Shown: positions 50,394 through 52,207 of the stretch, one piece after another
How positions within the stretch are numbered: the first letter of the stretch is position 1
Layout: each line of letters starts with the position of its first letter
Assembly: GCF_000484635.1 (NCBI RefSeq)
Contig: NZ_AXVM01000005.1
Location: 124,001 to 188,000, forward strand
Reading direction: 5' to 3'
Source of the DNA: Comamonas badia DSM 17552
GTDB lineage: Bacteria; Pseudomonadota; Gammaproteobacteria; Burkholderiales; Burkholderiaceae_C
Length of the DNA stretch: 64,000 bases
Position numbers and translations under genes: made by a program
Notes under the pieces: generated by a model
What the model was told of the DNA's origin: nothing
Databases searched by the model: none
The model's input: the letters and a program-made list of their open reading frames with translations, nothing else

Positions 50394-51548
50394 TCAGGCG
50401 CGCTGGTCGATGGGTACGAAGCGTTGATCCTCCGGCCCGGTGTAGTGTGCGCTGGGGCGGATGATCTTGTTGTCGATGCGCTGCTCGATCACGTGCGCAG
50501 CCCAGCCGCTGGTGCGCGCGATCACGAATAGCGGCGTGAACATGGCCGTGGGCACGCCCATCATGTGGTAGCTGACGGCGCTGAACCAGTCGAGGTTGGG
50601 GAACATCTTCTTGACTTCCCACATCACGGATTCGAGCCGCTCGGCGATGTCGAACATCTTGGTCGATCCGGCCTCTTCGGAAAGCTGTTTCGCCACGCCC
50701 TTGATGATGACGTTGCGCGGGTCGCTCACGGTGTAGACCGGGTGGCCGAAGCCGATCACCACTTGCCTGGCTTCCACGCGGCGGCGGATGTCGGCCTCGG
50801 CCTCGTCGGGCGAGTCGTAGCGCTTCTGGATCTCGAACGCCGCCTCGTTCGCCCCGCCGTGCTTGGGCCCGCGCAGCGCGCCGATGGCGCCAGCGATGCT
50901 CGAATACATGTCGCTGCCCGTACCGGCGATCACGCGCGCGGTGAAGGTGCTGGCATTGAATTCGTGCTCGGCGTACAGGTTGAGCGAGGTGTGCATGGCG
51001 CGCACCCAGGCGTCGCTGGGCTTGACGCCGTGCAGCAGGTGCAGGAAGTGGCCGCCGATGGAGTCGTCATCCGTCTCCACCTCCACGCGGCGGCCCGAGT
51101 TGCTGAAGTGGTACCAGTACAGCAGCATGCTACCCAGGCTGGCCATCAGCCGGTCCGCGATATCGCGCGCGCCGGGCAGGTTGTGGTCGTCCTTCTCGGG
51201 CAGCGCGCAGCCCAGGGCCGAGACACCGGTGCGCATCACGTCCATCGGGTGGCTGGCGGCGGGCAGCTGCTCCAGCGCCGCCTTCACGCTGCCGGGCAGG
51301 CCGCGCAGGGCCTTGAGCTTGGCCTTGTAGGCCTTCAGCTCGGCGCGCGTGGGCAGCTTGCCGTGCACCAGCAGGTGGGCGATCTCCTCGAACTCGCAGA
51401 CTTCGGCGATGTCCAGGATGTCGTAGCCGCGGTAGTGCAGGTCGTTGCCGGTGCGGCCCACGGTGCATAGGGCGGTGTTGCCGGCGGTGATGCCGGAGAG
51501 GGCGACGGATTTCTTCGCCTTGGGAGGGGTTGCGGTAGCAGTGGTCAT
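50394..51548 (-). CDS. prpC: 2-methylcitrate synthase
   Basis: A 384-residue enzyme condensing propionyl-CoA with oxaloacetate. Citrate-synthase-fold residues are visible: the active-site His in [15 protein letters not shown] and [13 protein letters not shown], and the catalytic Asp region near the C-terminus. PrpC-type features include [20 protein letters not shown] and [20 protein letters not shown]. Length is normal for PrpC and shorter than housekeeping citrate synthase. ATG 51548 is separated from the MITE's edge by 37 bp. It is the first enzyme of the methylcitrate route here, followed by prpD and the lyase. Confidence 0.95.
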
Positions 51549-51585: not shown

Positions 51586-51854
51586 TAGCCCAGCGAAACG
51601 GTGAAATCGGCTGTGCGCTGGGACTGCAACGGGTGCAGGGCAAGGCGCGCACCGCAGCCAAGGCTGGCTGCCTTAGCAAGGTGGGCAACGCTGTCATGCG
51701 CCCGTTGCAGCCCCAGCCCTTCGGGTGAACGCCTGGCAAGGCCACACTCGTCGTTGCCGTGCTCGCCGGGTGTCCAACCCGACTGCGCACGTCGCCTCGA
51801 TTGGGGCCTTGCCAGACGTTCACGCACAGCCGATTTCACCGTTTCGCTGGGCTA
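51586..51854. mobile_element. MITE-like element, 269 bp, with 32-bp terminal inverted repeats
   Basis: The ends are perfect 32-bp inverted repeats (51586-51617 and 51823-51854, each with agcccagcgaaacggtgaaa inside) and begin with TA on both sides, as for a TA target duplication. Inside are two more inverted pairs: 51617-51633 with 51701-51717 (16/17 matching) and 51725-51743 with 51805-51823 (18/19 matching). The whole element can fold as a three-way junction. No transposase gene is present; short open frames on either strand are mirror artefacts of the repeats. It fits a non-autonomous IS630/Tc1-mariner-type MITE. It lies between the thioesterase and prpC. Confidence 0.8.
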
Positions 51855-52207
51855 GGTCGGCCCTTGCCGTCCACCGCCACCATTTCAAAAACACCCTTGA
51901 GCACTTCCTCGGGTGGCGTGCCGGGCGATTCGGACAGGCCCGTCACGCACACCGTCATCGAGCTGCGCCCGACGCGGCTGACCCAGGCGCGCAGCAGCAA
52001 CTGCTGCCCCAGCGCCACGGGCGAGAGGAATTGCACGCCGGTCACGGCGGCCATCACCGCTTCGCGCTGCGCCAGGCCGCGTGCCGCGAGAAACGCGGCC
52101 TTGGCCATCAGCCGCAGGCCTTCGCCAGCGAACAGCGTGCCACGGTGGTTGGCGTGCGCGGGCAGCACCAGCTCGTGCAGTTCCAGGGTTCCCGAAGGGC
52201 TTGTCAT
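51836..52207 (-). CDS. Acyl-CoA thioesterase (hotdog fold)
   Basis: A 123-residue hotdog thioesterase: LELHELVLPAHANHRGTLFA, then GEGLRLMAKAAFLAARGLAQ, VTGVQFLSPVALGQQLLLRA, and RVGRSSMTVCVTGLSESPG. It would hydrolyse acyl-CoA thioesters, perhaps propionyl-CoA overflow given its neighbours. The start is ATG 52207. The natural C-terminal part (VAVDGKGRP) is followed by SPAKR and TGA, all encoded by the terminal inverted repeat of the MITE, so its original C-terminus has been replaced. It is the first gene after the promoter region shared with the ScfR regulator. Confidence 0.82.
   Translation of the reverse strand: MTSPSGTLELHELVLPAHANHRGTLFAGEGLRLMAKAAFLAARGLAQREAVMAAVTGVQFLSPVALGQQLLLRAWVSRVGRSSMTVCVTGLSESPGTPPEEVLKGVFEMVAVDGKGRPSPAKR

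Follow-up and report, generated by a model that had tools for sequence, protein, structure and literature searches.

A probable non-autonomous transposable element with IS630-type ends and a conserved two-hairpin core in Comamonas badia DSM 17552

The element and its locus

A 269-bp element (51586-51854) sits between two minus-strand genes in the window, by which we mean the whole 64,000-nucleotide stretch of Comamonas badia DSM 17552 that was analysed, and its features are listed in Table 1. The flanking genes are ones that we take to be thioesterase-like and citrate synthase / 2-methylcitrate synthase-like. As the first-pass annotation had described, the element is bounded by terminal inverted arms of 32 nt (51586-51617 and 51823-51854) that are 100% complementary and both begin with TA, and the internal pairs of 17 bp and 19 bp (one mismatch each) given there proved to be portions of 26-nt inner arms, 85% complementary in one case (51617-51642 with 51692-51717) and 88% in the other (51725-51750 with 51798-51823). 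The predicted folds of the element as RNA (-191.1 kcal/mol, z -13.6) and as DNA (-115.4 kcal/mol, z -14.5), each with 0 of 200 shuffles as good, both take the form of the three-way junction that had been proposed, plus a tiny linker hairpin. The same annotation found no transposase, which agrees with the small size of the element and with its three frames of 84, 84 and 92 codons, lying inside or almost inside it, none of which has a Pfam match at E <= 1; longer frames overlap the element partially. Two Rfam matches to the element at E <= 1 were far under their cut-offs (30.6/90 and 12.6/100 bits).

Table 1. Features of the element and its neighbours, in window coordinates. R1 is a covariance model of the hairpin unit, and the window's alpha and beta are both among the 54 units used to build it.
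Feature	Position	Strand	Basis
Downstream neighbour gene, presumably citrate synthase / 2-methylcitrate synthase-like	50394-51548	-	ORF list
Left TA target duplication copy	51586-51587		Gap-free junction against element-free orthologue with one TA kept
Left terminal inverted repeat, IS630-type	51588-51617	+	32-bp perfect repeat including TA; likeness to Variovorax IS630
Hairpin unit alpha, forward, 101 nt	51617-51717	+	Arms, folds; top own-genome R1 match, 86.5 bits
Alpha internal-loop motif AGGCGC, 5' side	51643-51648	+	A28, G29, C31 and G32 invariant in 54/54 units
Alpha internal-loop motif GCAACG, 3' side	51685-51690	+	GCAAC invariant in 54/54 units
Linker CCTTCGG, itself a tiny hairpin	51718-51724		7 nt in 92/99 two-hairpin elements
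Hairpin unit beta, inverted, homologue of alpha, 99 nt	51725-51823	-	R1 minus-strand match, 83.9 bits
Right terminal inverted repeat	51823-51852	-	Complementary arm pair
Gene presumed thioesterase-like, 3' end altered by insertion	51836-52207	-	TGA at 51836-51838 in right terminal repeat
Right TA target duplication copy	51853-51854		Junction alignment with element-free orthologue

A protein search with the thioesterase over nine genus genomes returned, beyond its own gene, a single clear orthologue (G001, 75%), with matches of 30-35% only in the remaining seven. The G001 locus lacks the element, in agreement with the empty site that the first-pass annotation expected among relatives, and its thioesterase frame extends to about the start of the citrate-synthase gene. 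Joined to one another, the window flanks give an alignment with G001 that is short by two bases and that becomes gap-free when one TA is retained; G001, a single diverged relative, has CG where the window junction would have TA. Insertion of the element at a TA, with duplication of that TA, is thus strongly supported. The insertion altered the end of the thioesterase frame, so that the terminal repeat now provides the TGA stop.

Related copies

DNA comparison found one full copy of the element in its own genome and, over the nine genus genomes, none outside that genome; over 399 family genomes it gave end-to-end copies of 74-88% identity in four other genera (L007, L008, L009 and L010), as well as a second end-to-end copy in one of these genomes, G301. 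One of the four, L008 (G324:C721:1825-2057), has a window-type terminal repeat intact at both ends and an alpha hairpin of 65 nt against 101, shortened at the apex. An end-pattern search of 28 genomes raised the G301 count to five intact copies at five loci on four contigs. Two of these, L058 and L060, agree at every one of 272 bases and stand in opposite orientation at different loci on different contigs; the other pairs within four of the five differ by 2-5 bases, and the fifth copy (L010/L064) differs from those four by 1-6 bases and one gap. Closely similar copies at different places in other genomes strongly support a mobile family. Such a family had been claimed at first reading, and the copies in four other genera, the five near-identical ones in G301 and the element-free orthologue bear it out; the part of the expectation that concerned further full copies in the genome itself did not hold at DNA level.

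The window's end pattern occurs in seven stretches of the genome collection, which comprise six element copies or relics and one unrelated single match; no insertion sequence with the window's exact ends was found among the seven. L038, on a Gemmatimonadota contig, has no second end at <=2 mismatches and no recognised transposase-like frame adjoining it and was put down to chance, as was L069 on a viral contig, where the pattern gave one end alone. Contig 76 of G759 was considered as an autonomous 5.3-kb form with a terminal repeat and a hairpin unit at each end, and was rejected as an assembly artefact made of an inverted duplicate, its frames mirroring each other (L129; G759:C76, 7226 bases).

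The structure model R1 found 17 matches in the window's own genome at E <= 0.01. Relics among the own-genome loci include L140 and L151, in which one hairpin is mostly lost, and the halves L141-L143. The same genome holds a second two-hairpin element, L144 (G000:C1:191342-191546), of 286 bp including its arms and with the unrelated ends CTAGTGTAGGGTCGCACTC, and three single-hairpin elements (L146, L147 and L152, on contigs C5, C7 and C4) with a further end type like GGCRACGCTGAAYAA. Hairpin units lie at both termini of one of its contigs (G000:C4:2-98 and C4:411067-411156), as is expected if repeats break assemblies. Hairpins made of terminal repeats only were seen as L066 in G301 (58 bp) and, in similar form, as L042 in bin10. 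Elsewhere, a single-hairpin form of 163 bp (L117 1470-1632, G767:C86) has 49 perfectly inverted end bases and CTAG on both sides, and units lie between the ends TTAACCCGGCAA in L112, L115 and L130-L133 of other Gammaproteobacteria (G759, G822 and G813), which by kinship share the class of the window's genome; in G813 (L130), a palindrome of those ends occurs alone at one place.

The hairpin core

The core of the element consists of two inverted, homologous hairpins of ~100 bp and a 7-base linker, and alpha and beta in forward reading both run CNAGGCGC, CGCAG or similar, apex and GCAACG. In an alignment of 54 units out of 27 elements (A1), 94.2% of the paired cells hold standard pairs, against 61.8% with the 3' letters shuffled and 37-42% with the partners slid, a control biased in favour of the structure since the structure was taken from the same alignment. 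Double-sided changes affect 565 cells, and the strong covariation of the hairpin stems supports the conserved structural family that had been suggested for the element. The internal loops are conserved in letter as well: the outer hairpin-stem columns average 58% majority identity and the 12 internal-loop motif columns 97%, nine of these 12 (AGGCGC / GCAACG) being invariant in 54/54 units, and the loop mismatches combine C-A with G-A in 52 of the 54 units and with A-A in the remaining two.

R1 matched 264 of 399 genomes of the family at E <= 1e-3, and at E <= 1e-6 it matched 100 of 300 genomes of the order, 35 of 185 of the class and 25 of 200 of the phylum, 13 of these 25 belonging to another class; the four samples all include the window's own genome and overlap partly, scoring was confined to the 10-21 best candidates of each genome, which makes copy numbers lower bounds, and weak matches close to the limit may be due to chance. 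In the units examined from other orders and classes, AGGC and AAC keep their positions, and units paired across a short gap recur there. The geometry of the pair was taken from 113 loci searched with R1, of which the 97 with neighbouring match pairs were kept (99 elements) and the 16 with a single match or none were dropped, which selects the sample for pairs. In this sample 92/99 elements have a linker of 7 nt, and 194/198 units measure 97-103 nt; in the 90 elements with classified ends, 29-30 nt separate the unit from the terminal-repeat body on either side, as measured by a finder that picks the match nearest 29.

Terminal repeats

The ends of 90 of the 99 two-hairpin elements could be classified, and nine fit no type. 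The window's own type, TA followed by GTCCARYGAAAC (IS630-type), accounts for 12 of the 90, TA followed by GGGCCTGTT and similar for 44, and TNA followed by GAGCCTG and similar for 32, with two mixed. With mixed rows assigned by their left end, TA stands on both sides of 9/12 copies of the first type and 20/45 of the second, and an identical 3-base TNA on both sides of 11/33 of the third.

The window repeat agrees with the two ends of an IS630-family element of a Variovorax plasmid, whose transposase carries the Pfam domain DDE_3, at 23 and 20 of 32 bases, and the G301 copies agree with them at 25 and 23; the G301 copies and the Variovorax element have in common TAGTCCA, an inner GAAATCGGATGTG and TA at both ends. 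Such an end, at <=11/32 mismatches, was present in seven of 13 related IS630 loci (L209-L221), against a null of 0.02 per strand per locus from single-base shuffles of five loci, and was absent at this limit from the other six and from two more distant loci (L223 and L226). The assignment of the window element's ends to the IS630 type is strongly supported by these likenesses, and the Variovorax element itself is an imperfect relative. The first-pass annotation had attributed mobilisation to an IS630/Tc1-mariner enzyme elsewhere in the genome and had advised looking for an IS630-like transposase whose ends match the 32-bp repeats; the type of the ends fits, and an imperfect relative exists, but the Variovorax transposase has no match in the genome at E <= 1e-40 and the exact cognate was not found. 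G301 carries five IS630 copies with ~40% identity to the Variovorax transposase, and the window's type of end pattern, at one mismatch, was not found on the ends of those five.

IS5-like ends belong to 78 of the 90 classified elements, and the window copy, of the TA-GTCC type, is not among them. End sequences of the second and third types recur around ~815-bp elements of three Burkholderiaceae plasmids, one of which is annotated as IS5 and two of which have no annotation there and frames that look alike; they also recur around 845-862-bp elements of Aromatoleum, Xanthomonas and B. glumae plasmids that carry an IS5 annotation. The 14-bp ends of these ~815-862-bp elements show 0-1 mismatch between sides (4/6 annotated IS5), and the B. 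glumae IS5 protein has the Pfam domains DDE_Tnp_1 and DUF4096. IS5 partners were found for three end sequences, the other ends being called IS5-like by similarity. IS630 as the typical mobiliser of the structure, as first proposed, does not stand against 12/90 IS630-type and 78/90 IS5-like ends. Because the same core lies between IS5-like ends in relatives, it is more than the residue of a single insertion sequence, and these sequence comparisons show it to be a fixed family of its own.

A quick maximum-likelihood tree was built from 96 cores without their outer arms (208 columns, midpoint root; L008, L112 and L115 left out), in which the stems evolve jointly and 35/92 inner branches have support below 80. 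End types cluster on this tree, the minimum number of changes for five labels being 13 against 42 in shuffles, and its well-supported branches force at least three changes for GGGCC, at least four for GAGCC and at least one for the IS630 type. Ten of 11 IS630-type rows form one clade (SH-aLRT 97) amid IS5-like rows, with L036 elsewhere; on this evidence it looks as if the core has exchanged its ends, and as if at least one exchange led from one transposase family to an unrelated one.

The elements also show where they land. A coding-like open frame enters the element on 95 of 180 sides, and on 45 of these the stop codon falls exactly at the target site, either as TAG (33; the duplicated target and the first base) or as TNA (12; the three bases before the repeat), where the frame alone would give about one third (p 0.003, from a null that is crude, above all for TNA ends, and with near-copies that are not independent). 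When the coding score was tightened to 0.33, a threshold set post hoc, a count by hand gave 32/44 sides (p 1e-7). The first base past the duplicated TA restores a TAG stop, so an element can settle on a stop codon and leave the gene unharmed; the window copy is a non-case, since the thioesterase frame stops 14 bases into the repeat body.

Interpretation

The element is probably a non-autonomous transposable element with TA insertion, IS630-type ends and a conserved two-hairpin core, presumably moved in trans. An IS630-family transposase, not found in the genome, would have excised it and pasted it in at TA. For the core a wider reading is plausible, at somewhat less than even odds: the non-coding hairpin pair with its invariant loop motif may be a selfish unit found across Pseudomonadota, which rides on IS5-type or IS630-type ends, often onto stop codons, has swapped those ends several times and is recognised by a protein as a folded single strand. 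That the pair recurs in many related bacteria, flanked by the ends of two unrelated transposon kinds, suggests that the hairpins themselves matter for the spread of the element.

The alternative that keeps most weight, unlikely though we consider it, is an ordinary MITE with passive hairpins, that is, foldback DNA kept paired through replication slippage around a core without function. Some near-copies point to a copying process. L058 and L067 differ by four bases, which are one compensatory pair and two unpaired bases, and L169 and L171 differ by 18, with five compensatory pairs and one single stem change; L189 and L191, on the other hand, show seven single wobble changes, one single A-C and zero compensatory changes, and in other near-copy pairs single changes are most frequent, outnumbering compensatory ones in some. 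Arm copying therefore likely occurs, but not as the sole process. Arms can change together even in a pair with four differences, which is what replication through the fold would give by copying one arm from the other. The shortened copies without a hairpin or without the whole interior (L066, L042 and L140) also suit passive hairpins. Pure copying, however, would erase the loop mismatches, and the mismatched internal loops stay constant, with 9/12 motif columns invariant against 58% identity in the stems; AGGC and AAC moreover persist in the examined units of other orders and classes. The likeliest reason for this constancy would be a protein that reads this motif from the hairpin in its folded form and that might help transposition, replication or protection against nucleases.

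Improbable in our judgement is a structured RNA, for instance a stabiliser of 3' ends, a terminator or a small RNA, that is only incidentally mobile and whose stems are kept paired by RNA selection. The strong predicted RNA fold and the strong stem covariation would suit it, as would the frequent position of elements exactly at stop codons, which would place them in message 3' ends. An RNA made from one strand needs G-U to exceed A-C in all stems, though, and the two hairpins lean in opposite directions: on the alpha-first strand, alpha has 80 G-T and 32 A-C, beta has 26 G-T and 60 A-C, and the outer stem has 54 and 47. Each hairpin thus prefers wobble on its own forward strand, and those strands are opposite, so that no single transcript fits. 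Pooled regardless of strand, there is little preference for G-T over A-C (56 and 48; 97 and 114). In unit-forward reading, removing the single most skewed position from each hairpin leaves 56 against 30 and 37 against 23; the p-values of 0.007 and 0.09 are rough because the rows are related, and the per-position wobble table excludes units with >7 mismatches or unusual length. No T-run follows the element in the window on either side. Folded single-stranded DNA of both strands could explain the wobble leanings, and we infer that the loops are read as folded DNA, the hairpins acting as folded single DNA strands rather than as one RNA.

Two inverted hairpins that each lean to wobble on their own forward strand might also bring to mind a single-strand (HUH/REP-type) transposase that spreads the hairpin element as it does REPINs, the terminal repeats being secondary; this is very improbable, as the ends match DDE transposons, TA or TNA duplications are present and the junction fits a TA duplication. 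Equally remote is a stem-loop replacing transposition in which the element swaps with short hairpins of its own ends, as proposed for IS1272 (PMC5678879), which reportedly leaves no duplication of its target: end-only hairpins exist (L066, L042) and so does the other-end palindrome in G813, but simple deletion accounts for short hairpins, and TA or TNA duplications, unlike in IS1272, are present.

The shape of the interior is more conserved than the ends, and the ends come from two unrelated transposase families. The lasting unit is accordingly the core, and what reads its hairpin loops becomes a question that can be put to the test. Searches for RNA genes should also be wary of long covarying hairpins whose wobble leans to opposite strands.

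Comparison with known elements

REPINs and BIMEs consist of two palindromic units in inverted orientation. They share with the present element the inverted pair of units, which here are ~100 bp long and are enclosed by terminal repeats of DDE type. The Correia elements (NEMIS) of Neisseria are small and non-coding, have terminal repeats and a TA target, and fold; they resemble the element in these respects, differ from it in their ends and are not known to have a large internal hairpin pair.

The BRE repeats of Bordetella and several Comamonadaceae are ~90 bp long, GC-rich and mostly intergenic, occur as single or tandem repeats, and have been given a possible mobility and no known function (Hot et al., 2011; PMC3110155). 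Neither a paired hairpin nor terminal repeats nor a transposase come up in the section of that paper on BRE, and by its description, the basis of this comparison, BRE may be one hairpin unit. No description of the two-hairpin element was found among the titles and abstract openings listed in a literature search that lay mostly outside subscription journals; the related literature includes a review of MITEs in prokaryotes (PMC10969869) and a survey of stem-loops (PMC2267715).

The element shares with the IS630 / Tc1-mariner MITEs its lack of coding content, a TA target with duplication and IS630-like terminal repeats, and it is present as one full copy in its own genome and five copies in G301; it differs from them in its interior, a conserved hairpin pair that occurs with IS5-like ends as well. 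MITEs are usually regarded as deletion leftovers of one insertion sequence. With the IS5-family MITEs, the IS5-like ends are shared by 78/90 elements that have this core, but not by the window copy. The element is ordinary in its landing and unusual in its cargo.
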